Shown here: positions 12,974 through 29,407 of the stretch, piece after piece
Numbering within the stretch: position 1 is the stretch's first letter
How the letters are laid out: each line of letters opens with the position of its first letter
DNA from: Verrucomicrobiota bacterium
Lineage (GTDB): Bacteria; Verrucomicrobiota; Kiritimatiellia; SS1-B-03-39; UBA6053
Reading direction: 5' to 3'
Assembly (NCBI GenBank): GCA_020831625.1
Contig: JAFIGD010000001.1
Location: forward strand, 62,001-126,000
DNA length: 64,000 bases
Position numbers and translations under genes: made by a program
The notes under the pieces: generated by a model
The model's database searches: none
Told to the model about the DNA's origin: nothing
Seen by the model: the letters and a program-made list of their open reading frames with translations, nothing else

Positions 12974-14320
12974 ATGTCTGAATCGTTCTTAACCCTCACG
13001 TCGAAACACACACCGGATCGTCTAAGCACCCGCGCCCACCCGGGCTGGGAGATGACGGGAGACCCGGCGAACGCGCCGACGCTGCATCTGGAACCGGACG
13101 CCTTGCAACAGGAACTTCTGGGTTTCGGCGGCGCGTTTACAGAAGCCTCGGCCTGTGTGTATTCAAAATTGGGCCCTGACAACCGGCGCCGTTTTCTGGA
13201 CGCATATTTTCATCCGACAAACGGCCATGGCTACCGCATGGGCAGAACCCACATCAACAGTTGTGATTTCAGCCTGGGGAATTACGCATATACCGAAGTG
13301 GACGGAGATGTGGCTCTTGACCATTTTTCACTCGATCATGAGCGCACCCTGCTTTTCCCCCTGCTTCGGGACGCGCAGGCGGTCGCACCGGAGCCGATCA
13401 AACTGTTCGCCTCTCCCTGGAGCCCCCCGGCCTGGATGAAAACCAACGGGGAAATGAACAACGGCGGGAAACTCAAACCCGAATACCGAAAGGCCTGGGC
13501 GGCGTATTACGTCCGGTATATTCAGGAAATGGAGAAAGAGGGCTTTCCCATTTGGGGACTGACCGTACAAAACGAGCCCGCTGCCCGGCAGATTTGGGAT
13601 TCATGCGAGTACACCGCCGAGGAGGAGCGGGATTTTGTGCGCGATGACCTGGGTCCGGCGCTGCGTGCCGCCGGACTCGGCGACCGAAAACTGATCATCT
13701 GGGACCACAACCGCGACATCATGCCCGAGCGCGCCCGGGCGGTGCTTTCCGATCCCGAGGCCGCCGCATTCGTCTGGGGAACCGGTTTCCACTGGTACGG
13801 CGAGGACGCCTTCGAAAATGTGGCCGCGGTGCGGGATGAATTTCCGAATCATCATCTGATCTTTACCGAAGGCTGCCAGGAGGGCGGCCCGCACCTTGGC
13901 TCATGGGAACTCGGCGAGCGCTATGCCCGATCCATCATACACGACCTAAATAACGGAACCGAGGCCTGGGTGGACTGGAATTTATTGCTGGATATCACCG
14001 GCGGCCCCAATCATGTCGGCAACCTCTGCAGCGCCCCCGTGATTGCGGATATCGACAACGACAAACTGCTGTTTCAAAGCTCCTACTGGGCGATCGGCCA
14101 TTTCAGCCGCTTTTTCCCCGGCGGCGCCCGGATTATCCCGATTCAAAATGAAAGCACGGAAGTTCTCGCAACCGCCGCGCGGTTCGGCGAAAATATCCGG
14201 GTGGTGCTTCTCAACATACATGAGCGGGAGCATCGGCTCCACCTACAGATCAAAGGGGCACGGACCTCCATCACCCTCCCGCCCCGCTCCATCGCCACTT
14301 TTCAATCCGTCCTGCCATGA
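12974..14320 (+). CDS. Glycoside hydrolase family 30 (glucosylceramidase-like), cytoplasmic
   Basis: A 448-residue GH30 enzyme: QELLGFGGAFTEASA opens the domain; the acid/base is E201 in WGLTVQNEP and the nucleophile is E299 in HLIFTEGCQEGG; the C-terminal beta-sandwich begins near YWAIGHFSRFFPGGARI. GH30 members include beta-glucosylceramidases, beta-1,6-glucanases and xylanases; the catalytic motifs and the FGGAFTEA opening suit the glucosylceramidase-like subgroup, and a beta-1,6- or beta-1,3-gluco-oligosaccharide is a reasonable substrate here. No signal peptide, so it should act on imported oligosaccharides. First gene downstream of the regulator, under the operator-bearing promoter, coupled to the next gene by ATGA. 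Confidence 0.9.
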   Translation: MSESFLTLTSKHTPDRLSTRAHPGWEMTGDPANAPTLHLEPDALQQELLGFGGAFTEASACVYSKLGPDNRRRFLDAYFHPTNGHGYRMGRTHINSCDFSLGNYAYTEVDGDVALDHFSLDHERTLLFPLLRDAQAVAPEPIKLFASPWSPPAWMKTNGEMNNGGKLKPEYRKAWAAYYVRYIQEMEKEGFPIWGLTVQNEPAARQIWDSCEYTAEEERDFVRDDLGPALRAAGLGDRKLIIWDHNRDIMPERARAVLSDPEAAAFVWGTGFHWYGEDAFENVAAVRDEFPNHHLIFTEGCQEGGPHLGSWELGERYARSIIHDLNNGTEAWVDWNLLLDITGGPNHVGNLCSAPVIADIDNDKLLFQSSYWAIGHFSRFFPGGARIIPIQNESTEVLATAARFGENIRVVLLNIHEREHRLHLQIKGARTSITLPPRSIATFQSVLP

Positions 14321-15563: not shown

Positions 15564-16475
15564 ATGAATCCGCTACGCTTATTCCTCCCCATGTTCACCT
15601 CCAGGGTGACGGTTGCAATCCCGGCAATCCTTGTTCTGACCGCCACATCAATTTCCCGCGCCAATATCATCCAGTGGGGAGGGACTGACGGAGAATACAC
15701 CACTCCTGCGAACTGGGTCGGAGGAGTGCTTCCGAACACCGCGAACGGGGACACCGCACAAATCAACAGCGGCAATGTCACCTATACACCCGGGGGAGAC
15801 CTCACCCTAAGCAATGGTGGCGTTTTGCAGATCAATGGCGGAAGCTGGACACAAATAAACGAAATAGCCTGGATCCAAATGAGTGGCGGAACGTTGGCAA
15901 TCAACGGAGGTGTCTTCAACCAGGGGTCCTCCGGAAACATTTTAAGGAATGCCGCCAGCGCCATCATTGTGTCAGGCGGAACCGCCAATTTGAATGGCAA
16001 TCTGGAGTATAACCCCACAAGTCTTGGAACCCTCTCCTTGACCAGCGGCACCCTGAATGTGGGGAGCGAATTCAAACCGATTTCAGACTTTTATATGACA
16101 GCCGGAACTCTGTCTGCAAATCTCATTTCGTTTGCCGACGGCCCGGGGAGTATTTATTTCTCCGGGGGCACGATTCAAGTGAACGGGAGTGCATTTGGCA
16201 ACGGACTATACGGCGGCGGGGACAAGTCCATTGATTTCAGCACGGGATCAACCGGCGGATTGTTTTTAGACAATTTAACCCCGTCGGAATTCTTCTCCAC
16301 AGGTTTTTTAACCAATGGTACGATTCGCCACAACGGCGCCATTTCCGAGGCGGACTTCATTGTGTCGGAAAGCGGAAGCGGTACCCTAATAACTGTGATC
16401 CCCGAACCCTCCACGCTTGGATTGGTCATGTTGAGCCTCATGGCCGGCGCAATCGGTTTAAGAAAACGCCGCTAA
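15564..16475 (+). CDS. PEP-CTERM surface protein with a Gly/Asn-rich beta-repeat region
   Basis: A 303-residue exported protein. Signal peptide: hydrophobic VAIPAILVLTATSISRA, cleaved probably after RA. The body is made of short beta-strand units of the type NGGVLQINGGSW / SGGTLAINGGVF / SGGTANLNGNL, typical of a right-handed beta-helix like those in autotransporter-type PVC proteins. The C-terminus VIPEPSTLGLVMLSLMAGAI followed by GLRKRR is a PEP-CTERM sorting signal, which an exosortase cleaves. No exosortase is in the window. The gene sits inside the glycan island behind its own operator-bearing promoter, so it may bind or organise glycan at the cell surface. Function unproven. Confidence 0.88.
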   Translation: MNPLRLFLPMFTSRVTVAIPAILVLTATSISRANIIQWGGTDGEYTTPANWVGGVLPNTANGDTAQINSGNVTYTPGGDLTLSNGGVLQINGGSWTQINEIAWIQMSGGTLAINGGVFNQGSSGNILRNAASAIIVSGGTANLNGNLEYNPTSLGTLSLTSGTLNVGSEFKPISDFYMTAGTLSANLISFADGPGSIYFSGGTIQVNGSAFGNGLYGGGDKSIDFSTGSTGGLFLDNLTPSEFFSTGFLTNGTIRHNGAISEADFIVSESGSGTLITVIPEPSTLGLVMLSLMAGAIGLRKRR

Positions 16476-16568: not shown

Positions 16569-19500
16569 ATGACTGATTCCAATCACCGAATCGAAAATTT
16601 CGATCAACTGCCGCCCTTCTTCATGACCCTGGTCAGTTCCTCGGACATCTGGGCCTTTCTCTCCAGCACCGGCGGAATCACCGCAGGCCGCCAAAAAGCG
16701 GATTATGCCCTGTTTCCCTATTACACGGACGACCGGGTCAGCGAAAACGCGCACAACACCGGTCCGCTCACCCTGATACGACTGCCTTCCGGTGAATGCT
16801 GGCAACCTTTTTCCGGCGAAATCCCGTCCGCCCATCCCCGCGTCCGCACCCTGTTTAAAAGTGTTGCCGGGGATAAAATCACCTTCAGGGAAGTCCGCCC
16901 GGACCTCGGACTTTGCTTTGAGTACACCTGGTGCGGCAGCCCCCGTTTCGGACTGGTTCGAAAAGTCGTCCTGCACAATCAGAGCGAATCCCCTGTTTCG
17001 CTGGAACTCCTGGACGGCGTACAAAACCTTCTCCCCGCCGACACCACCCGCCAACTCCAAAACGAATTCAGCAATCTGCTCGATGCCTACAAACGCTCCA
17101 CCCTGGAGTCCCCCGGCACGCTGGCCCTGTACACCCTCTCCTCCCTCCTCACCGATCTGGCCGAACCCAGCGAGGCCCTGCGGGCCACCACCGCATGGAG
17201 CTGCGGTCTGGATGTACGGGAAACGCTTCTGAGTCCGGATCAGATTCCCGCCTTCCTCCGGCAGGAGCCCCTGCAAACCGAAACAGATGTCCGCGCCCGC
17301 CGCGGAGCCTTTCTGCTGTCAACCTCCCTGACCCTCCAGCCCGGCGAAACGGCAGAATGGTTCCAGGTGTTCGATGTCCGCCAGGATCACGCCTCCGTCG
17401 TGGAGCTTCAGGCCCTGCTTGCCGACCCCGGGGCTGCGCGGCAGTCCCTCATCGACGACATTCAGGCCGGCACCGGGTCCCTGCTGCAAAAAATGAGCGC
17501 GGCGGATGCCCTTCAGTTCACCGGCGATGTCTCCGCATCCAGCCACCACTTCAGCAACGTGGTGTTCAACTGCATGAGGGGAGGACTGTTCCCGGACGGC
17601 CCCCGGATTCAGAAAAATGACCTGCACACGTATTTAAAAACCTGGCACCACGGCAGTGAGGACGCGGTGGACGAACTGTTTCCGGAGGAAACGGAACACC
17701 TTTCCCTGCTCGAATTCCGGAAACGCCTGCCCGGGCTGACCTCTCCCGACGCCCGCCGGCTCTGCGGCCAATACCTGCCGCTCACCTTCAGCCGGCGCCA
17801 CGGCGATCCCAGCCGCCCCTGGAACACCTTTCACATCAACGTGACCCGCGAAGACGGAAGCCCCCGGCTCGACTATCAGGGCAACTGGCGCGATTTCTTC
17901 CAGAATCTCGAAGCTCTCCTCCTCTCCTGTCCCCCGTTCATTCCCCAGGCCGTCTCCTGTTTCCTCAACGCCACCACCGAGGACGGATACAATCCCTACC
18001 GCGTCACCCGCTCCGGAATCGAATGGGAAAAACCGGAGCCGGAGAATCCCTGGTCCAATATCGGGTACTGGGGAGATCACCAGATCATCTACCTGCTCAA
18101 ACTCCTGGAGGCCAGGGAATCCATCCAGCCCGGCGAGTTGATAAAGACGCTGAACGCCCCCCTTTTCAGTCATGCGGATGTTCCCTACCGCATTCTTCCG
18201 TATGATGAATTGTGTGCCCGCGACGACGGCACCACGGTGCTTTTCGATGCCGGACAGGATCAGTTGATTGAGCGGCGCGTCGCCTCTGTCGGAGCGGACG
18301 GCAAAATGGTTCACGACGCCGAAGGCAAGATCGTTCAGGTCAGCCTTCTCGAGAAACTCCTGATCCTCACCCTGGCCAAACTCGGGAATTTCGTTCCGGA
18401 TGCGGGCATTTGGATGAACACCCAGCGCCCCGAATGGAACGACGCCAACAACGCGCTTGCCGGCAGGGGGCTGTCGGTTGTCACCCTCGGATACCTGCAC
18501 CGCTGGCTGCTGTTTATCCAATCCCGTCTCCAGGAGGATGTCCGGGAACATTATGGCTTTACCCCGAGGGTTGCGGAATGGCTGGAGGAAACCGCGAAAA
18601 TCCTGTCCACCCCGCCCCCGTCCCCCTGTGATGACCGCACCCGGCGTCAGGTCATGAATCGGCTCGGAAGGGCCGCTTCCGAATATCGGAAACAGGTGTA
18701 CGAGAGACTTCCGAATGTCGGAACCCGGTCTGTTCCCCGTGGGGATCTGATCCAATTTGTGGAACAGGCGCTGCGGATCACCGCCGCTTCCCTGCGCGCA
18801 AACCGCAGAGCGGACGGTATGTACCATGCCTACCACGTGCTCGAATTTACCGGGCCGGACCAGGCTTCTGTCCGCAATCTCGACCTCATGCTGGAGGGGC
18901 AGGTCTCCGTTCTGTCGTCAGGAATCCTCCCGGCGGACGAAGCTGCGGATCTGCTGACCGCCCTGCGGCAAAGCGACTTGTACCGGGAGGATCAGCACTC
19001 CTACATGCTCTATCCGAACCGTATTCCGCCGCGCTTCATGGACAAAAATCAGGTATCCGCCTCCGCAGTCACCGGCATCCCGTTCCTCGCCGGATTGGCA
19101 CGGAAAAACAACAGCTTGATCCGGAGGAATGTGAACGGAGTGTTTCATTTTCATCCCGATCTGCGGAACGCCCGTGATGTGGAAACCTGTCTGGACACCC
19201 TGGCTGCCGATCCCGCCTGGTCAGAGGCGGTGCGGAGGGACCGGACCGCAGTTCTGGCCCTGTACGAACAGACCTTCAATCACCGGACCTTCACCGGACG
19301 CTCCGGCTCCATGTTCGGGTATGAGGGTCTCGGCAGTATTTACTGGCATATGGTCGCCAAACTTCTGCTGGCCGTCCAGGAAACCTGTTTGAGCGCGGAG
19401 GCCTGCGGAGCCGACCCCGGCCTTCTGCAAAAATTGCGGGCCGCCTACACCGATGTGAGGAACGGCCTGGGCTTCCGCAAAACTCCGGAACAGTTCGGGG

Positions 19501-19940
19501 CCTTTCCAACCGACCCCTATTCGCATACCCCCATGGGAGGCGGTGCCAAACAACCGGGAATGACCGGTCAGGTGAAGGAGGAAATCCTGACCCGCCTCGG
19601 TGAACTCGGGCTGCGTTTCCGCAAAGGCCGCATCCATTTCTCCTGTGGACTGACTCCGCGGGAAGACTGGCGCACAGAAGCCGGAACCTTTCACTGGCGT
19701 GACATCACCGGAGCCGAACACGTAACCGAAGTCCCCGCGAAGGCCTATGCCTTTACCTGCTGCGGCGTGCTCATTCTCATCCGCCAAACCGAAAGCTCCG
19801 GCATCGGAATTCAGTTCGCCGACGGAACTGCGGAGAATCTCAACACCCTCATCCTTCCCGAAAAATGGAGCCGTTCGCTTTTCTCGCTCACAGGGGAAAT
19901 CAGCGCTCTGATCGTTTCTGTGAATGCAAACTCCCGTTGA
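16569..19940 (+). CDS. Large uncharacterised cytoplasmic protein, possibly GH94-like beta-sandwich plus alpha/alpha barrel
   Basis: A 1,123-residue protein with no signal peptide and no membrane segment. Not assigned to a family with confidence. Residues about 25-300 look like a beta-sandwich (DYALFPYYTDDRVSENAHNT, FGLVRKVVLHNQSESPVSLE), resembling the N-terminal domain of GH94-type phosphorylases. The remainder is rich in helix pairs with aromatic/acidic motifs such as TTEDGYNPYRVTRSGIEWEK, IGYWGDHQIIYLLKLLE, QRPEWNDANNALAGRGLS and SMFGYEGLGSIYWHMVAKLL, in keeping with an (alpha/alpha)6 barrel. It lies between a terminator and the ABC importer genes, with its stop before the binding-protein start, so a role in processing the imported sugar is likely. 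Alternative: a structural or regulatory protein of unknown type. Confidence 0.6.
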   Translation: MTDSNHRIENFDQLPPFFMTLVSSSDIWAFLSSTGGITAGRQKADYALFPYYTDDRVSENAHNTGPLTLIRLPSGECWQPFSGEIPSAHPRVRTLFKSVAGDKITFREVRPDLGLCFEYTWCGSPRFGLVRKVVLHNQSESPVSLELLDGVQNLLPADTTRQLQNEFSNLLDAYKRSTLESPGTLALYTLSSLLTDLAEPSEALRATTAWSCGLDVRETLLSPDQIPAFLRQEPLQTETDVRARRGAFLLSTSLTLQPGETAEWFQVFDVRQDHASVVELQALLADPGAARQSLIDDIQAGTGSLLQKMSAADALQFTGDVSASSHHFSNVVFNCMRGGLFPDGPRIQKNDLHTYLKTWHHGSEDAVDELFPEETEHLSLLEFRKRLPGLTSPDARRLCGQYLPLTFSRRHGDPSRPWNTFHINVTREDGSPRLDYQGNWRDFFQNLEALLLSCPPFIPQAVSCFLNATTEDGYNPYRVTRSGIEWEKPEPENPWSNIGYWGDHQIIYLLKLLEARESIQPGELIKTLNAPLFSHADVPYRILPYDELCARDDGTTVLFDAGQDQLIERRVASVGADGKMVHDAEGKIVQVSLLEKLLILTLAKLGNFVPDAGIWMNTQRPEWNDANNALAGRGLSVVTLGYLHRWLLFIQSRLQEDVREHYGFTPRVAEWLEETAKILSTPPPSPCDDRTRRQVMNRLGRAASEYRKQVYERLPNVGTRSVPRGDLIQFVEQALRITAASLRANRRADGMYHAYHVLEFTGPDQASVRNLDLMLEGQVSVLSSGILPADEAADLLTALRQSDLYREDQHSYMLYPNRIPPRFMDKNQVSASAVTGIPFLAGLARKNNSLIRRNVNGVFHFHPDLRNARDVETCLDTLAADPAWSEAVRRDRTAVLALYEQTFNHRTFTGRSGSMFGYEGLGSIYWHMVAKLLLAVQETCLSAEACGADPGLLQKLRAAYTDVRNGLGFRKTPEQFGAFPTDPYSHTPMGGGAKQPGMTGQVKEEILTRLGELGLRFRKGRIHFSCGLTPREDWRTEAGTFHWRDITGAEHVTEVPAKAYAFTCCGVLILIRQTESSGIGIQFADGTAENLNTLILPEKWSRSLFSLTGEISALIVSVNANSR

Positions 19941-20001
19941 ACCCCCCGCGCAAAGCGTGACCAACCACATCTCACATCCACAGAACCAGATAAACGAAAC
20001 C

Positions 20002-21369
20002 ATGCACACCCTCAGCCTCTCTCCCGGCAGCTGGACCATCCTTGCATTAGCGGGATTCTCCTCGATCGCACTTTTGTTTTACAAGGATCCCCCCGCGGAG
20101 GGACTGGAGTTCTGGCTCTTCTCCAAACATCACGAGAGCATGTACCGGCAAACAATTGTTGGGGAAGCCGATCCGGTCGTCTCACCCGTAGTGATCAGCT
20201 TTCAGGCGTTGGAGCGCCGACTGCTTTCAGGATTTCTTTCCGACACCCCCGTACCGGATGTGGTGGAGGTGGAAATTGCCATGGCGGCCCGTTTTTTTTC
20301 CGGTCCCCTGGAAGCCATCGGCTTTCTCGATCTGAGGGAGCGCATCGAGGCGGAGGGTCTTGACCGGCGGATCAACCCTCCGGCTTTCAGTCCCTGGAGC
20401 CGGGAAGGCCGGATTTTCGGACTGCCCCACGATATGCATCCGGTTTTGCTGGGGTACCGTGCCGATATCGTTGAAGCGGCGGGGATTGATGTGACCGAAA
20501 TCGAAACCTGGGACGATTTTGTGCGGCTGTTCTCCCCCTTGATGCGCGATTTCACCGGCGACGGGGTAATGGACCGCTACCTGCTGGATGTTTGGGAAAC
20601 CGACGCCTTCGCGGTTGAGATTCTCCTCCTGCAGGCGGGGGGCGGATTCTTCGACACCGCCGGACGGCCGGTGCTCCAGTCGGAAATCAACGCCCGGGTG
20701 CTGGCAACGCTGGTCACCTGGACCACCGGGGACACCCGCATCGGAGCGAATGTTCCGCGTTTTGACGCCGGCGGAAACCGACAGCGTCTGGAAGGATTTG
20801 TGATTTGTCATTTGTTGCCGGACTGGTATGCGGGCGGTTTGCAGCGCGAGGTCCCGGGTTTGGCAGGCAAACTCAAACTCATGCCCCTGCCCGCCTGGGA
20901 ACGGGGAGGAAACCGCACCAGTGCCATCGGCGGCACCATGATCTCCATTCCCGCCCGCGCCAGTGACCCGGATGCGGCGTGGGAATTCGCAAAGAAACTC
21001 TATCTCGATAAAGACATCGCCCGTGAGATGTATCAGGAAAGCCTGATTGTATCCCCCGTGATGGATCATTGGGAGGACGCGGTGTATGATGAACCGGTCC
21101 CGTTCTATTCCGGCCAGCCCGTGGGCAGACTCTATCTGGAGGTCGCGCCCGCCATCCCGCCCCGCGCCCCGTCGCCGTTTTTGACGATCGCCCGGGAAAG
21201 CGTCATCGACGCCCTGATCCGCACCCGCCGGGAGGCCATGAACCGTTCGCTTGTCACCGTGGAGGCGATTCTTCCCGTCGCCCGGCGTGAACTCGGGGTG
21301 GCGCAGCGCCACATTGAAGGGAAAATGTCCCGAAACCGCTTTCTGCAGCCTCCCGGAGAAACGCCGTGA
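20002..21369 (+). CDS. ABC sugar importer, extracellular solute-binding protein (family 1)
   Basis: A 455-residue binding protein. The N-terminus has a hydrophobic segment (WTILALAGFSSIALLF) without a clear signal-peptidase site, so it may stay membrane-anchored. The body has the family-1 pattern: DVVEVEIAMAARFFSG, EGRIFGLPHDMHPVLLGYRADI, a DDFVRLFSPLM helix, and TSAIGGTMISIPARASDPDA before the C-terminal helices. The ATG at 20002 is preferred over one 78 bp upstream because it puts the hydrophobic segment near the N-terminus; the ribosome binding site is weak in both cases. It overlaps the first permease gene by 4 bp (GTGA). The D-G-V-M-D motif (GDGVMDRYLL) is EF-hand-like. Confidence 0.88.
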   Translation: MHTLSLSPGSWTILALAGFSSIALLFYKDPPAEGLEFWLFSKHHESMYRQTIVGEADPVVSPVVISFQALERRLLSGFLSDTPVPDVVEVEIAMAARFFSGPLEAIGFLDLRERIEAEGLDRRINPPAFSPWSREGRIFGLPHDMHPVLLGYRADIVEAAGIDVTEIETWDDFVRLFSPLMRDFTGDGVMDRYLLDVWETDAFAVEILLLQAGGGFFDTAGRPVLQSEINARVLATLVTWTTGDTRIGANVPRFDAGGNRQRLEGFVICHLLPDWYAGGLQREVPGLAGKLKLMPLPAWERGGNRTSAIGGTMISIPARASDPDAAWEFAKKLYLDKDIAREMYQESLIVSPVMDHWEDAVYDEPVPFYSGQPVGRLYLEVAPAIPPRAPSPFLTIARESVIDALIRTRREAMNRSLVTVEAILPVARRELGVAQRHIEGKMSRNRFLQPPGETP

Positions 21370-22244
21370 GTTTGTCCCGCACCCACCCGCGATGGGTTCC
21401 GTATTTTTTCATCGCGCCCTTCGCCCTGGTGTTCGGCATTTTTATGTTTTACCCGCTCGTGGATTCACTGTTTATGTCCACCTACCAATCTTTTGGTCCT
21501 CAACACCGCACCTTCGTGGGGTTTGAAAATTTCGTTCATGTTTTCCGCGATGCCGATTTCCGGACCGCCCTCAAAAACACCTCGGTCTATACCCTGGCCT
21601 CCGTCACCGTCCAGCTCCCTCTGGCCCTGGGGCTGGCCCTGTTGCTGAACCGGCCCGGCATCAAAGGCAAAGCCCTCTTCCGCCTCATCTTTTTCTCCCC
21701 CTCCCTGGTCGGACTGGTGTTTGTCGCCATCCTTTTCGGACTGCTTCTGGGATCCCGTGACGGACTGGTCAACGAGGCTCTCCGCGCCGTCATCCCCGGC
21801 TTTCCCTCCGAATTTTTCTGGCTGCAGCGCTATGTGATGGGTTCCCTGATTCTGGCGTCCCTGTGGATGTACACCGGATTCAACATGGTCTATTTTCTCG
21901 CCGCGTTACAGTCCGTGAATCAGGACACCCTGGAAGCCGCCTCGATTGACGGCGCCAACGCCGTGCAGCGGTTTACACATGTGGTGCTGCCGGAAATCAA
22001 GCCCGTCGCCGGTTTCGTGGTCCTGTTGTCAATCCTGGGCAGTCTGCAGTTGTTTGAACTTCCCTGGATCCTTTTCGACGGAGCCGGCCCCGAAAAACGG
22101 GGCCTCACACTGGTCATGTATCTATATCAAAACGGTTTCGAACAGAACGATCTCGGATACGCCAGCGCCATTGGCTGGGTGCTCGCGATCCTGCTGATGT
22201 TTATCGCTGTTCTTCACCGGAAACTCACCCGGGAAGAGGACTGA
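21366..22244 (+). CDS. ABC sugar importer permease, MalF/UgpA type
   Basis: A 292-residue permease with six predicted membrane helices (first FFIAPFALVFGIFMFYPL). The EAA loop that contacts the ATPase is visible as DTLEAASIDGANAVQRFTHV followed by VLPEIKP. It begins with GTG at 21366, overlapping the stop of the binding-protein gene (GTGA), and is followed after 1 bp by the second permease. The ATPase is not in this operon; a shared MsmX-like ATPase elsewhere is the usual solution. Confidence 0.92.
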   Translation: MSLSRTHPRWVPYFFIAPFALVFGIFMFYPLVDSLFMSTYQSFGPQHRTFVGFENFVHVFRDADFRTALKNTSVYTLASVTVQLPLALGLALLLNRPGIKGKALFRLIFFSPSLVGLVFVAILFGLLLGSRDGLVNEALRAVIPGFPSEFFWLQRYVMGSLILASLWMYTGFNMVYFLAALQSVNQDTLEAASIDGANAVQRFTHVVLPEIKPVAGFVVLLSILGSLQLFELPWILFDGAGPEKRGLTLVMYLYQNGFEQNDLGYASAIGWVLAILLMFIAVLHRKLTREED

Positions 22245-22245
22245 C

Positions 22246-23268
22246 ATGCATTCCACGCGCCTGCTGAAACCTTTATCGCTTTGTATTGCGTACGCGCTGC
22301 TTTTGCTGGCGGCCGCGGTGACTCTGGTTCCGTTTGTCTGGCTGGTGTTCGCTTCGCTGCGCGCCCCGGAGGTTTATTTTGAATTCCAATTCGTTCCCCG
22401 GATCCGTTCGGTCCAGCTTGTCGAAGCCAATCCGCGTCCCGACCTTGCGGAACTGTGGCAAACCCTGCAGCCCGCCCGGGGCCTGCGCCTGGAAGAGGCA
22501 CGGGAGAAACTTGGCGCGGAAAACGTGGACCGCGGGTTGACGGAAGGTATGGCCTCCCTCAAATCCGGCGCTGTTGATTGGACGTATCTCACCGGCGACT
22601 ATTTTAAAATCCTGTTGACTCAGCCTGAATTCTCCTTTGTCCGCAACATCCTCAACTCTGTCTTCTACGCCTCTGTCACTGCGGTTTTCGCCACGCTCTT
22701 TGCGGCCATGGGCGGATATGCCCTGGCAAAGTTTGATTTCCGGCTGCGGGGAGCCTTCACCCGGCTGGTCCTGCTCGCCCTGATCCTGCCCGGCGCGCTA
22801 CTGCTGGCCCCCGGATATCAACTGCTGTTCCGTCTGGGACTGCTGGACACCTACGCCGGCCTGATTCTGCCCGGACTGGCCCCCGCTTTCGGGGTGTTTC
22901 TCTTTCGTCAAACCATGCTGAATTCCGTTCCCATGGAACTGATGGAGGCGGCCCGAATGGACGGGTGCGGGGAAATCCGCCTCTTTTTCGCGGTGATTCT
23001 CCCGCTGGTGCGTCCCATGATCGGCGCATTCCTTCTGATCATGTTTCTCGGCGCCTGGAATAATTTCATCGGCCCCCAGATCGTTTTGCAAACCCCTTCA
23101 AAATTTCCGCTCTCGGTGGCCATCGCGCAACTCAAAGGCGTGTACTCCACCGATTACGGTCTGCTGATGGCCGGCACCTTAATTTCAATCGCCCCCATCA
23201 TGGCCCTCTTTCTTCTGTTGCAGAAAGAATTTATTTCCGGACTCACGTCCGGAGCGGTGAAAGGCTGA
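22246..23268 (+). CDS. ABC sugar importer permease, MalG type with an enlarged first outside loop
   Basis: A 340-residue permease, about 60 residues longer than a typical MalG homologue. TM1 is YALLLLAAAVTLVPFVWLVF; then, where the family has a short loop, residues about 40-125 form a charged soluble segment (RPDLAELWQTLQPARGLR, EEAREKLGAENVDRGLTEG) before TM2 (NILNSVFYASVTAVFATLF). The EAA loop is MELMEAARMDGCGEIRLFFA followed by VILPLVRP. The enlarged loop faces outward and may contact the binding protein. Last plus-strand gene of the operon; convergent with the GH-A gene that follows. Confidence 0.9.
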   Translation: MHSTRLLKPLSLCIAYALLLLAAAVTLVPFVWLVFASLRAPEVYFEFQFVPRIRSVQLVEANPRPDLAELWQTLQPARGLRLEEAREKLGAENVDRGLTEGMASLKSGAVDWTYLTGDYFKILLTQPEFSFVRNILNSVFYASVTAVFATLFAAMGGYALAKFDFRLRGAFTRLVLLALILPGALLLAPGYQLLFRLGLLDTYAGLILPGLAPAFGVFLFRQTMLNSVPMELMEAARMDGCGEIRLFFAVILPLVRPMIGAFLLIMFLGAWNNFIGPQIVLQTPSKFPLSVAIAQLKGVYSTDYGLLMAGTLISIAPIMALFLLLQKEFISGLTSGAVKG

Positions 23269-23305: not shown

Positions 23306-24574
23306 TTACTCCACCACCCGCAGGGTGGATTGGGCGATGGTGAGGTTTCCGGCCTCGTCCAGGCGGTGCATATAGATTTCATAAACACCCGGTGAACGGG
23401 GGGGCTGAAATCTGTAGATCCGGTCGCGCAGCGCCTCATGCTCCAGGGGCAGCACGCGGTTGCGGATGTCCCGGGCCTCCAGGGGGGTGCGATAATAAAA
23501 CGACACCCGTTCTCCGAGGGACGGTCCATTCAGGGGCTCCACGCCCGCCCGGACCCATTCGCCGGGAGCCGGTTCGACCGGAGACATCAACAGGCCGCCC
23601 ACATTCAAATCCAGCCCCTCCGGCTTCCGCCCGCTGAAGGCTTCCCGGGTGGCCCAGTATCCCGGCCGCCGGTGCCCGCGCACAAAAAAATCCAAATGGA
23701 AACTGGTGGGCCCCCAGTCGTCGCCAAAATTAAACGAAAACGCTCCGAGACATCCCTCAGGCCTTTTGGCCTCCACCCATTCCGCCCAGCCGCGGACGAT
23801 CTGGTCGTACTTTTCCCGGTCGGTGGGCGTGACCGGAACGCCCCGGGCATCTTTGGCCGCGTCCCAGGTTCCCTGCGGTCCGAATTCAGTCACCACATAC
23901 GGTTTTTGACTCCCCAACTCCCGCAAAACGGCGGGAATGGCCCCGATTGCAGGGCCATAGGCATTGATGCCGTACACATCCAGGGAGGGACAGTATTTCT
24001 CCCAGTACGGAACCGACACCGTGAACGCGGAAACCGACATCAGCGGATTCACCGGATCAATCTTTCGGATCTCCTGACACAGCGCCTCCAGATATCGGGC
24101 ATACGCGATCTTCTGCTCTTCGGTGGGGATGTTCAGAATCACTTCATTTCCCACTCCCCAGCCCAACAGGGCGGGGTGTTCATGAAACTCCGCCACCTGA
24201 CGCAGAATCTGCCCGGTCTGCCTGCGGGTTCGATCCGTATGCAGGAGATAATTCATGTCGCCGTCACCCTCCGCGCCGTCGCGCCCGTGCTCCAGCCACA
24301 AGCCCAGCATCACCTTGATCCCCTCCGCGTGGGCGGCGTCCAGCAACGCCCGCGTTTCGGAACCTACCCCCCAGGTGCGGATGGTGTTGCCCCCCATCTC
24401 TTTCACATCCCGCAGGGCCGACTCCATGGCCCGGGGATTCTCAGGGGTGTTCTTGATGGTGAAGGTCACCCCCTTCACAAAGAAGGGCTCCCCCCGGGCA
24501 TCGACGGGCCAGCGGGATTCGCCCATCACCAGCCCGCACATCCACAATCCGAAAAGGACGGTCAGATTTTTCAT
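23306..24574 (-). CDS. Exported clan GH-A glycoside hydrolase (GH2-type TIM barrel), second paralogue
   Basis: A 422-residue enzyme with a signal peptide (MKNLTVLFGLWMCGLVMG). FFVKGVTFTIKN opens the barrel, as in GH2/GH5-like proteins; GGNTIRTWGVG follows; the acid/base is E144 in GWGVGNEVILN and the nucleophile E230 in YVVTEFGPQG. A C-terminal beta-sandwich (about 330-422) follows. It is a divergent paralogue of the gene just upstream (15 bp gap), sharing NTIRTWGVG, GLWLEHG and NAYG motifs. Exact family and substrate cannot be fixed by eye; a glucan-active enzyme is suggested by the GH81 next to this operon. The start at 24574 gives the signal peptide. Confidence 0.82.
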   Translation of the reverse strand: MKNLTVLFGLWMCGLVMGESRWPVDARGEPFFVKGVTFTIKNTPENPRAMESALRDVKEMGGNTIRTWGVGSETRALLDAAHAEGIKVMLGLWLEHGRDGAEGDGDMNYLLHTDRTRRQTGQILRQVAEFHEHPALLGWGVGNEVILNIPTEEQKIAYARYLEALCQEIRKIDPVNPLMSVSAFTVSVPYWEKYCPSLDVYGINAYGPAIGAIPAVLRELGSQKPYVVTEFGPQGTWDAAKDARGVPVTPTDREKYDQIVRGWAEWVEAKRPEGCLGAFSFNFGDDWGPTSFHLDFFVRGHRRPGYWATREAFSGRKPEGLDLNVGGLLMSPVEPAPGEWVRAGVEPLNGPSLGERVSFYYRTPLEARDIRNRVLPLEHEALRDRIYRFQPPRSPGVYEIYMHRLDEAGNLTIAQSTLRVVE

Positions 24575-24588
24575 GTCCGGTCTCCTCT

Positions 24589-25866
24589 TCAGGGGCTCAC
24601 ATAAAAAGGCCAGTTGTCCATGCACCCGGCTCCCCGGCCGTCAGTTACGGTGACAAAGACCCGGTAGGCTCCCGGACGCTGGGGCGCGGTTAACAGTGCG
24701 CCTCCCTCCGCATCGGTCGCCCGCACGGCGCCCGGCACCGAATCCGGCCGCTGTTCCCGGTCTCCACCCACCTGACGGTCCGTGCTCTCATGAAACACCT
24801 CCCAGTGATAGGTCAGGGGATCTCCCTCCGGATCTTCATACCGCACCCGGATCTTGAATTGTTCACCGGGCTTCACCCGTTGATTAAACACCGGCACCTC
24901 AACCTCCCTGAGCACCGGGGCACGGTTTTCGGGCCACTCGCCGGTCCAGGCCCGGGTCATGGCGTCCACCCGAACGGTTTTATCCCCGTTGGGCAGGAAC
25001 ATGCCGAACCAACTCGCGGTCGCCTCCTGTTTGTGTCCCCATAAAAAAGCGAATGTGCCCAGGCACAACGTGGTGTCCTCCATGATCTGTTGATATGCGC
25101 CGTAGTAAAACCCCGCTTTTTGACGGCTCAGGGGTTCAATCGGGGCACCCCAGGCGGTTTGTTCCACTTCCCAGGGTCCGGGCAGGCCAAATTCCGCGAT
25201 GGTATACGGCTTGGTCCAGCCATAATTTCTGAGATTCCTCCCGATTCCGCCGGCACCCGCATAGGCATTTACCCCAAGGATATCAATTTCCGGCGCGTAT
25301 TTTTGGATTGCCCGCACTTTGTCCGGATTCACATTCGCCACCACCGTCATCACCGGATGATGGGGATCCAGCGCTTTAATCCGCTTTGCCAGCTCGTTTA
25401 TTTCGCGCCAGATCACCGGACTGTCCCCGCGATTCTGAATCCCCTCCATTTCGTTCCCCAATCCCCACACCAAAAGTGCCGGATGATCTTTAAATTTTTC
25501 AACCGCCTCCTCCACATGCCGGCGTTGTTGTTCCAATTGCTCCGGGTCGCTGTAATCAAACCCGTGGCGCTCATGCCCCAGCCAAATCCCCAGTGATACC
25601 ATGATTCCATGCCGATGTGCCTCATCCAGGAGCGCCGGGGTCTCCTCTCCCACCCCCCACGTCCGCGTCGCGTTGCCCCCGGAGGCCGCCAGCACATCAA
25701 AATGATGACTCCCCCCCACCCCTTTGATGACAAACGGATTGCCATTCACCAACAAATGATACCCCTGTTGCGCATCTCCGGTGATCTCCACCCTCGATTG
25801 TGCTTGAAGAGCGGTTGTAACGATGAACGCTGCGGTCATGGCCATTCCTATTCTGAATTTTTTCAT
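24589..25866 (-). CDS. Exported clan GH-A glycoside hydrolase (GH2-type TIM barrel), first paralogue
   Basis: A 425-residue enzyme: signal peptide MKKFRIGMAMTAAFIVTTAL ending QAQ. GYHLLVNGNPFVIKGVGG is the N-terminal strand typical of GH2 catalytic domains; GGNATRTWGVGEET follows; acid/base E139 in LVWGLGNEMEG and nucleophile E225 in YTIAEFGLPG. From about residue 305 a beta-sandwich with Ig-like/PKD-like features follows (VRYEDPEGDPLTYHWEVF, TAPQRPGAYRVFVTVTDGRG). It sits between a TPR-like gene and its paralogue. The C-terminal PKD-like domain may bind polysaccharide or extend the enzyme from the surface. Substrate inferred as beta-glucan only from context. Confidence 0.85.
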   Translation of the reverse strand: MKKFRIGMAMTAAFIVTTALQAQSRVEITGDAQQGYHLLVNGNPFVIKGVGGSHHFDVLAASGGNATRTWGVGEETPALLDEAHRHGIMVSLGIWLGHERHGFDYSDPEQLEQQRRHVEEAVEKFKDHPALLVWGLGNEMEGIQNRGDSPVIWREINELAKRIKALDPHHPVMTVVANVNPDKVRAIQKYAPEIDILGVNAYAGAGGIGRNLRNYGWTKPYTIAEFGLPGPWEVEQTAWGAPIEPLSRQKAGFYYGAYQQIMEDTTLCLGTFAFLWGHKQEATASWFGMFLPNGDKTVRVDAMTRAWTGEWPENRAPVLREVEVPVFNQRVKPGEQFKIRVRYEDPEGDPLTYHWEVFHESTDRQVGGDREQRPDSVPGAVRATDAEGGALLTAPQRPGAYRVFVTVTDGRGAGCMDNWPFYVSP

Positions 25867-26560: not shown

Positions 26561-29407
26561 ATGAAAATTCATTCTGTTTGTTCCGTTCTCTTTTCAGAAA
26601 GTAGAGGGCGTTCCATTTGCATGGCGGCGTGCCTTCACCTGACGAGCCCGCTTTTCACCTCGGCCCAAATCGCTCCGGAACCGCCCGATCTCCCCGCCAT
26701 CCGGGAACTGTACAACACCCCTCCGGTTCTCGGACCGGACGCCCGCAACCGTCCCCTTCCCAGCAACGACTGGTGGATCACCTTGTTACGGCATTCCCCT
26801 TTCCCCGGCACCCTGTGGGTGATGCCCCTGACCGTCACCCCCGACGAACAGGGACTGAACATCGGATATCCCATGGGCTGGTCCGAAGGAGGACACGAAC
26901 TGATTCAGGGCGCCCCGTTGCGCATTTCAGGTGTCCCCCCTGACCCGGCACTGCCCGGCGGCGCGATTTTGCTCTTCGATTTTGAAGAGGAGATCTGGCC
27001 GGATTCATGGACGGTGACCGGCAACGCCTTCGGTCCCGGCCCCATGCCCGCCAGCCGCCACCCCGCCACCAACCTCAGCGGCAACGCCTACGCCTGCTCG
27101 TTTTACGAGGGGGACCAGGGAACCGGGACCATCACCTCTCCCCCGTTCCGCCTCATCCGCGACTACATGCACCTGCGCGTTTCAGGAGGCAATGACCCTG
27201 ACCGGCTGGGGGTGGAACTGCTGGTGGATGGCGAGGTGGTGCACAGGGCGGTGGGAAATCAATCAAACGATCTCATTCCCCACCGCTGGGATCTTCGCGG
27301 CCATCTCGGCAAACAGGCGCGATTGCGCCTGGTGGACGAACACACCGGCGGCTGGGGATTTATCGCAGCCGATGCGGTTATCCTCAGCAACGATCCCGAA
27401 CCGCCCTCCACCGGTGTCTTTCGCACCTGCTCGGTTCTCGGCTGGGGCGACTGGTCTGTCAAAATGGGGCTGCACGGAAACAACAGTTCCCGCTTTGAAG
27501 TCACCATGGTTCGGGGCATGCCGTTTATCTGGATCCAGCCGGTCAACCTTCCCCCGGTTCTGCATCTCCTCCCCGGAGACGAGGTGCTGACCCCGCGGGG
27601 GGAGACCGCCGCCTTTCCCCATCGGGGCAATCGTCTGATGATCCTGCGGGAGAACCGGCTGTTCGGACTGTATCTTCCCGAGAACGCCGGTTTTAAACGC
27701 GACGGCTCACGATTGATTCCAACCTCATCAGCGGGAATCCCCTTTTTGGCGGTCGCGGCCCTGCCGGATAAAGATCTCGAGGCCGCCTACGCCGCCTTCG
27801 CGTACACCCTGCCGGTAAATACCCGCTTTGAATGGGAATACGCCCCGCGCGAAGCGGAAGTGAGCACCCGATGGCACGTCGAGACCCGCCCGCTGCAGGG
27901 ACAACAGGAACAGGTTCTTCAAGGCTGGCTGCCCCATCACTGGCGGAGCACCCGCCATGACCTCTCCTTCACGCCCGCAACCTATGGCACTCAGCGCGGT
28001 CCCATGAAAATCGCCCGCGGTAAAGACTTTGAGATACACTACCGCTTTCAAGGCCTTCCCGTCACCCTTCCCCTCCCGGACGAAACGCCGGGCGAACCGT
28101 ACTCAAAAGAGACCCTCGACCGCATCCTGACGGCCTGGATCGAAAACGAGCAAAGAAAAACCCCGGAGGAACGCGCGGGCGGAGACACGTACTGGGGGGG
28201 CAAACATATCCTGTCACTGGCCCGCGCCGCCACCCTCTCCGATCAACGGAACCACCCGCTCGCCGGAACGGCACTGGATCATATCCGCGAAGCGCTCACA
28301 GACTGGTTCACCTACACACCCGGTGAGACCGAGCGTTATTTCGCCCGCTATCCCGCGCCCTGGAAGGGCGTTGTCGGATTCAACCCCAGCTACGGCTCGG
28401 AGAATTTTTCGGACGCGCATTTCCATCACGGCCAGTTCATTCTCGCCGCCGCCCTGCTGGCCCGGCTGGATCCCGCCTGGGCGAAACGCTATCAAGATGT
28501 GGCCATACAGGTGGCCAGGCACTATGCCAACTGGGACCGTTCCGATCCGGATTTCCCCTTTCTGCGCACCTTCTCACCCTGGGTCGGCCACTCCTACGCC
28601 GGCGGCGGCTCGAATCCTCAGGACGGCAACAATCAGGAATCCACCTCCGAAGCCATGATGAGCTGGGCCGGACTGTTTCTGCTCGGCGCCGCGCTCGACA
28701 TGCCGGAGATGCGCGACGCCGGCGCCATGGGCTACGCCATCGAAGCCGAAGCCGTCCGCGAATACTGGAACGACTACTACGCATGGAAAGACCCGGAGGC
28801 CCCCGGCATATTCCCGCCCGCCTATCGGGCCGAACACACCCTCGTCAGCGTCCGCCGGGACCGGGACATGGGATTCTGGACCTGGTTCAGCGGCGAGCCG
28901 GTCCACATCTACGGCATTCAATGGCTGCCCACCTGGACACATCTCCAGTACCTCGGCCACGACCCCGAATTTGTACGGTATCAATCCGACCAGATGCGCC
29001 TCCGCCAGGGCAACGGCGTCCCAATCGATTTTGAAGCCCTTGGACGCGACTGGGGACATGTCGCCCTCAGTCATTTGCTCTGGGGCGACCCCGAAAAAGT
29101 GACCGCCGTCCTCGAAGCATCCATGCGCGGCCGGGGGGAATTGGGCGACTGGCGGAACGGCGGCGTCACCTACGCCTTTGCCCATGCCATGCGGCGCCTG
29201 GGACGCGCGGATCCCGATCTCCACAGCAGTCTCCCCACCAGCACGGTCTATCAGGCCCCCGACGGTTCACGAATCTGGACCGGCTGGAACCCCTCCCCCG
29301 CGCCTGTGCGTGTGGAGGTGTACCATCGACAGCGCAAACTGACCGAATTTATCGTGTCCCCGGGAAAAGAGCAGCAGGTCCGGATCCTGCCCCCCGTTCA
29401 AAACTGA
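26561..29407 (+). CDS. GH81 endo-beta-1,3-glucanase with an inserted beta-sandwich module
   Basis: A 948-residue secreted enzyme; a hydrophobic stretch (SICMAACLHLTSPLFTSA) after a charged leader probably serves as signal peptide. The N-terminal GH81 beta-sandwich begins PLPSNDWWITLL and resumes with CSVLGWGDWSVKMGLHG and MPFIWIQ. Between these parts, residues about 136-278 form an extra module (FDFEEEIWPDSWTVTGNAFG, EGDQGTGTITSPPFRLIRDY, LRVSGGNDPDRLGVELLVDG, DEHTGGWGFIAADAVILSN), a pattern known from insert-type beta-sandwiches in levanase-like GH32 proteins. The catalytic region shows D618 in SDAHFHHGQF and E693/E697 in NQESTSEA, as in GH81. It cleaves beta-1,3-glucan internally, pointing to laminarin as the substrate of the island. 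Confidence 0.93.
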   Translation: MKIHSVCSVLFSESRGRSICMAACLHLTSPLFTSAQIAPEPPDLPAIRELYNTPPVLGPDARNRPLPSNDWWITLLRHSPFPGTLWVMPLTVTPDEQGLNIGYPMGWSEGGHELIQGAPLRISGVPPDPALPGGAILLFDFEEEIWPDSWTVTGNAFGPGPMPASRHPATNLSGNAYACSFYEGDQGTGTITSPPFRLIRDYMHLRVSGGNDPDRLGVELLVDGEVVHRAVGNQSNDLIPHRWDLRGHLGKQARLRLVDEHTGGWGFIAADAVILSNDPEPPSTGVFRTCSVLGWGDWSVKMGLHGNNSSRFEVTMVRGMPFIWIQPVNLPPVLHLLPGDEVLTPRGETAAFPHRGNRLMILRENRLFGLYLPENAGFKRDGSRLIPTSSAGIPFLAVAALPDKDLEAAYAAFAYTLPVNTRFEWEYAPREAEVSTRWHVETRPLQGQQEQVLQGWLPHHWRSTRHDLSFTPATYGTQRGPMKIARGKDFEIHYRFQGLPVTLPLPDETPGEPYSKETLDRILTAWIENEQRKTPEERAGGDTYWGGKHILSLARAATLSDQRNHPLAGTALDHIREALTDWFTYTPGETERYFARYPAPWKGVVGFNPSYGSENFSDAHFHHGQFILAAALLARLDPAWAKRYQDVAIQVARHYANWDRSDPDFPFLRTFSPWVGHSYAGGGSNPQDGNNQESTSEAMMSWAGLFLLGAALDMPEMRDAGAMGYAIEAEAVREYWNDYYAWKDPEAPGIFPPAYRAEHTLVSVRRDRDMGFWTWFSGEPVHIYGIQWLPTWTHLQYLGHDPEFVRYQSDQMRLRQGNGVPIDFEALGRDWGHVALSHLLWGDPEKVTAVLEASMRGRGELGDWRNGGVTYAFAHAMRRLGRADPDLHSSLPTSTVYQAPDGSRIWTGWNPSPAPVRVEVYHRQRKLTEFIVSPGKEQQVRILPPVQN

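Follow-up and report, generated by a model that had tools for sequence, protein, structure and literature searches.

A domain of predicted jelly-roll fold is inserted in a loop of the N-terminal beta-sandwich of a GH81 endo-beta-1,3-glucanase encoded in the window (the whole stretch of 64,000 nucleotides that was analysed). The reading that we favour, by a modest degree, is that an old mobile module of ~140 residues has settled in this loop, in an enzyme that belongs to a probable laminarin-type gene cluster, and that it acts as a CBM-like accessory domain which holds glucan.

The GH81 gene and its neighbours

A search of PDB sequences with the 948-aa ORF returned GH81 enzymes, with E as low as 5.6e-71, and the relatives of the complete enzyme that bear a name belong to Kiritimatiellota and Lentisphaerae. 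The C-terminal domain is assigned to PF17652 by Pfam (residues 514-814, 134.5 bits for a cut-off of 25.6). PF03639 alone gave a partial, sub-threshold Pfam match (residues 297-491, 16 bits for a cut-off of 25.6), and membership of the N-terminal GH81 domain follows from colinearity with the enzyme BH0236 (BhGH81, PDB 5T4A) over residues 8-730 after removal of the insert. The sequences SDAHFHHG and DGNNQESTSE are both present, and D618, E693 and E697 are invariant in an alignment of four close homologues; we take these motifs to hold the catalytic Asp and Glu residues. The ORF encodes a GH81-family protein with intact catalytic motifs, which would act as an endo-beta-1,3-glucanase. The protein is probably secreted, since its N-terminus looks signal-like by eye. 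The features of the gene and of its surroundings are as follows.

12974-14317: GH30 gene
15564-16472: PEP-CTERM protein gene
19924-23265, plus strand: sugar-type ABC importer, comprising a solute-binding protein and two permeases (PF01547, PF00528 twice)
23309-24625, minus strand: second GH158-like gene (PDB 9oro, E = 1.2e-34)
24592-25866, minus strand: GH158 gene, a beta-1,3-glucanase family (PDB 9oro, GH158, E = 3.4e-88)
26561-29407, plus strand: GH81 endo-beta-1,3-glucanase gene, 948 aa (PF17652, E = 7e-39; GH81 matches in the PDB)
26693-26956, plus strand: GH81 N-terminal beta-sandwich, first part, residues ~45-132 (alignment with insert-free GH81 relatives and insert-removed match to 5T4A)
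26957-27409, plus strand: predicted jelly-roll insert, residues ~133-283, profile core 137-274 (alignment borders, profile match, fold predicted alone, Foldseek)
27410-28060, plus strand: GH81 N-terminal domain, second part, residues ~284-500 (partial PF03639, 5T4A alignment)
28100-29002, plus strand: GH81 C-terminal catalytic domain, residues 514-814 (PF17652; SDxHFHxG and DGNNQESTSE motifs)

The importer genes and both GH158 genes lie upstream of the GH81 gene, and the GH158 pair, the ABC importer and the GH81 enzyme likely form a laminarin or beta-1,3-glucan utilization cluster. The two GH158-like genes overlap each other and are read from the strand opposite to the importer. Between the PEP-CTERM protein and the importer, a 1123-aa ORF (16569-19937) had no Pfam match at E <= 0.001.

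Insertion of the module in the N-terminal beta-sandwich

The profile of the module core matches residues 137-274 (26969-27382). The borders of the insert were placed at about residues 133 and 283 (26957-27409), where insert-free GH81 proteins of the same phylum show a gap and align on both flanks. The best match of the intact protein to 5T4A (E = 2e-49) started only at residue 283; after excision of the insert it ran colinearly through the junction, over residues 8-730 of 759 (E = 3.5e-52). Since relatives align across the site and the 5T4A match becomes continuous on excision, the N-terminal beta-sandwich is interrupted by the module, and no part of it is evidently replaced. A preliminary description of this DNA had put the interruption at residues ~136-278; this proved true with slightly wider borders, and the four motifs quoted there were all found in the 948-aa ORF. 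BH0236 and other GH81 enzymes are like the present protein in both GH81 domains and in the catalytic motifs, and are colinear with it without the insert; BH0236 lacks the module.

No inverted or flanking repeats were found around the insert, and no GC step was found at it, its GC content being the same as that of the remainder of the gene. The insert thus bears no mark of recent arrival, and a recent mobile insertion was rejected.

Predicted fold and sequence relationships

Predicted alone, the module gave a compact ten-strand all-beta domain (pLDDT 76.4, pTM 0.77), in a model built on four sequences in which the loop at construct residues 34-45 is of low confidence. The Foldseek neighbours of this model were MAM, reelin and gingipain adhesin domains, as well as CBM4, CBM6, CBM29, CBM35 and one porphyran-binding CBM, all with TM ~0.5 and with E-values from 2e-5 to 1e-3; identities were 8-18% and rmsd mostly above 4 A, so that these matches point to a jelly-roll fold class and to nothing narrower. 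The jelly-roll proposed for the insert in the preliminary description is borne out to that extent, by the isolated prediction and by Foldseek.

Comparisons with Pfam and PDB sequences tied the module to no known family. A Pfam search of the insert returned no significant match, DUF4980 (PF16352) included, and among the CBM models in Pfam the best was CBM60, with E = 0.18 for one of 17 members, which does not place the module in a known CBM family. The module used as a single sequence had no match in the PDB, and its profile matched PDB sequences at chance level only (for example a bean amylase inhibitor, E = 0.025 over 29 positions). The jelly-rolls of CBM4, CBM6, CBM29, CBM35, MAM and cleaved-adhesin domains are thus alike in predicted fold class, but no significant sequence match links them to the module. 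Its invariant residues are mostly glycines, possibly buried aromatics, and Asp or Glu, as expected from a common scaffold, and no binding face was identified among the conserved residues. A model of the whole enzyme, also from four sequences, was too poor (pLDDT 43.7) to show where the module stands with respect to the cleft. Searches of viral contigs and of phages for relatives of the module or the enzyme were negative, and no paper describing the insert or the module was found among open-licence papers.

The module is carried by many other proteins

Homologues of the module are present in 49 of the 289 sampled genomes of the phylum, with E-values that reach 2e-34 beyond its own family, which excludes a chance match. 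Thirty-eight module proteins, chosen among the better matches, so that the shares are not those of a random sample, were scanned with Pfam. The hosts were GH32 (15), GH116 (9), DUF7133/HEAT/cytochrome (7), HZS_alpha-like (3), GH81 (2), DUF2961 (1) and LRR/PSCyt1 (1) proteins, so that 26 of 38 are glycoside hydrolases of families GH32, GH116 or GH81. The preliminary description had linked the insert to levanase-like GH32 enzymes; the module does occur on GH32 proteins, but a restriction to them does not hold, in view of the GH116, DUF2961, PVC haem-binding (DUF7133), HZS-alpha-like, LRR/PSCyt1 and GH81 hosts.

The position of the module varies among hosts, being N-terminal, C-terminal or internal. 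GH32 proteins (for example L077, L099, L092, Catenovulum adriaticum WP_326498607.1 and Actinomyces oris WP_271289540.1) carry a homologous module with roughly 33-49% identity to the insert; they differ from the GH81 protein in catalytic family and substrate, and the module stands before, after or sometimes within the propeller. Plasmid records contain it in GH32 genes from three genera (Catenovulum, Actinomyces, Pseudalkalibacillus) and, in three others (Streptomyces, Arthrobacter, Sinorhizobium), in DNA that has no annotation. In the GH116 hosts (L081, L080, L076, L094, L101, L102, L082, L106, L074) the module is again internal and inserted in the N-terminal domain, whose domain model matches in two parts, one on each side of it. 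A comparison by hhalign revealed no homology of the GH116 hosts to the GH81 hosts (E = 0.12) that might have accounted for a common insertion; the GH116 insertion is therefore regarded as separate.

In three GH32 proteins (L103:638-2767, L073:2218-4749, L087:2599-5370) the module is followed directly by a further, partial copy of itself. DUF4980 adjoins the module in some GH32 hosts, and in L103 the second copy overlaps a weak DUF4980 match, suggesting a possible distant relationship between DUF4980 and the module. L085, L084 and L097 bear the module close to the N-terminus; they possess a hydrazine synthase alpha middle domain and show weak matches of haem-binding-like type. L088, L095, L079, L069, L083, L075 and L071 are PVC-type DUF7133/HEAT/cytochrome proteins that also have it close to the N-terminus, and in the module tree these seven copies group as a single clade. 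In the labels of that tree, L098 is wrongly marked GH32, being the LRR/PSCyt1 protein, and the label of PVC haem protein given to L072, L078, L089 and L107 does not come from a Pfam scan.

History of the module within GH81

Among 33 GH81 proteins of the phylum that were inspected, drawn from two overlapping sets (289 genomes of the phylum and 346 of the class), nine have the module. The alignment included seven of these nine, and in all seven the module occupies one and the same site; in L133 and L144, the remaining two, it falls in the corresponding range of residues. Since GH81 proteins from several families in the phylum have the module at this site, the acquisition is old. In the backbone tree the nine proteins require two or three changes, and their grouping as a single clade was not rejected (p-AU 0.11); a single gain followed by a loss is possible. 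The GH81 copies require three changes in the module tree, the inner support of which is weak. Nine plasmid GH81 genes (Haloarchaea, Deinococcus, Flammeovirga, Streptomyces, Vibrio) gave no match to the module and aligned only from residue ~285. The combination, presented at first as unfamiliar in GH81, is thus recurrent within the phylum and has no counterpart among these nine genes of other taxa.

Role of the module

The most likely function of the module is that of a non-catalytic, CBM-like accessory domain, and substrate binding is plausible from its fold class and context. This is favoured by the prevalence of glycoside hydrolases among the scanned hosts, with one DUF2961 protein in addition, by the CBM neighbours in Foldseek and by the glucan gene context. 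Against it, the module is also found on haem- and HZS-alpha-like proteins, for which a polysaccharide ligand is not obvious, the conserved residues resemble those of a scaffold, and the structural matches reach the fold class only. The module would keep glucan near the enzyme, whose catalytic domain would hydrolyse it; the products would then be processed by the GH158 enzymes and taken up by the ABC importer. Because GH32 and other proteins share the module, any ligand preference would be tuned copy by copy. A bolder form of this proposal, to which we give somewhat less than even chances, is that the insert represents a wide-ranging carbohydrate-binding family with no Pfam model, which in this phylum entered GH81 and GH116 by separate insertions and became joined to GH32 and further proteins, and which in GH81 binds beta-1,3-glucan and is built into the catalytic unit. 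BH0236 has CBM6 and CBM56 modules beside its GH81 domain, and in a characterized GH81 enzyme a separate CBM56 aids action on insoluble linear glucans, not on laminarin (PMC9609564).

The chief rival to the CBM-like reading is that the module binds no sugar and stabilizes its host as a brace, a solubility domain or an oligomerization domain, for which the CBM-like domain of BT1760 offers a precedent (PMC6560043). The same scaffold-like conservation would suit such a role, as would hosts that have unlike substrates and include non-glycosidases; nevertheless, GH81 relatives in the same phylum manage without the module, and its varied position suggests a self-contained domain and not a brace fitted to one interface. 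We hold a structural role to be less likely than not. Tethering of the host to cell-surface or matrix glycans or proteins, as MAM or cleaved-adhesin domains may do, and not to the substrate of the enzyme, would fit with the MAM, reelin and gingipain adhesin domains among the best Foldseek neighbours and with the functional diversity of hosts in the phylum. We consider it improbable, as the annotated copies outside the phylum are on GH32 proteins of distant bacteria that have no surface in common with it. Finally, the location inside the N-terminal domain might suggest a mere lineage variant of the ordinary GH81 sandwich, an outcome against which the preliminary description had set its own proposal. 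This is scarcely credible: it is already refuted by homologous modules on other proteins and by the 5T4A match that becomes continuous on removal of the insert, and GH81 relatives whose alignment spans the site lack the module.

In conclusion, the GH81 insert is one case of domain shuffling that is common in the phylum, and the combination is not unique in GH81. It concerns a domain without a Pfam model, widespread in the phylum and inserted inside both GH81 and GH116 enzymes. In the characterized CBM-bearing GH81 enzymes known to us, the CBMs sit beside the GH81 domain; a module within a loop would be a different way of keeping glucan near the cleft, and the proteins that carry the module supply concrete cases on which the idea of a new CBM family can be tested.
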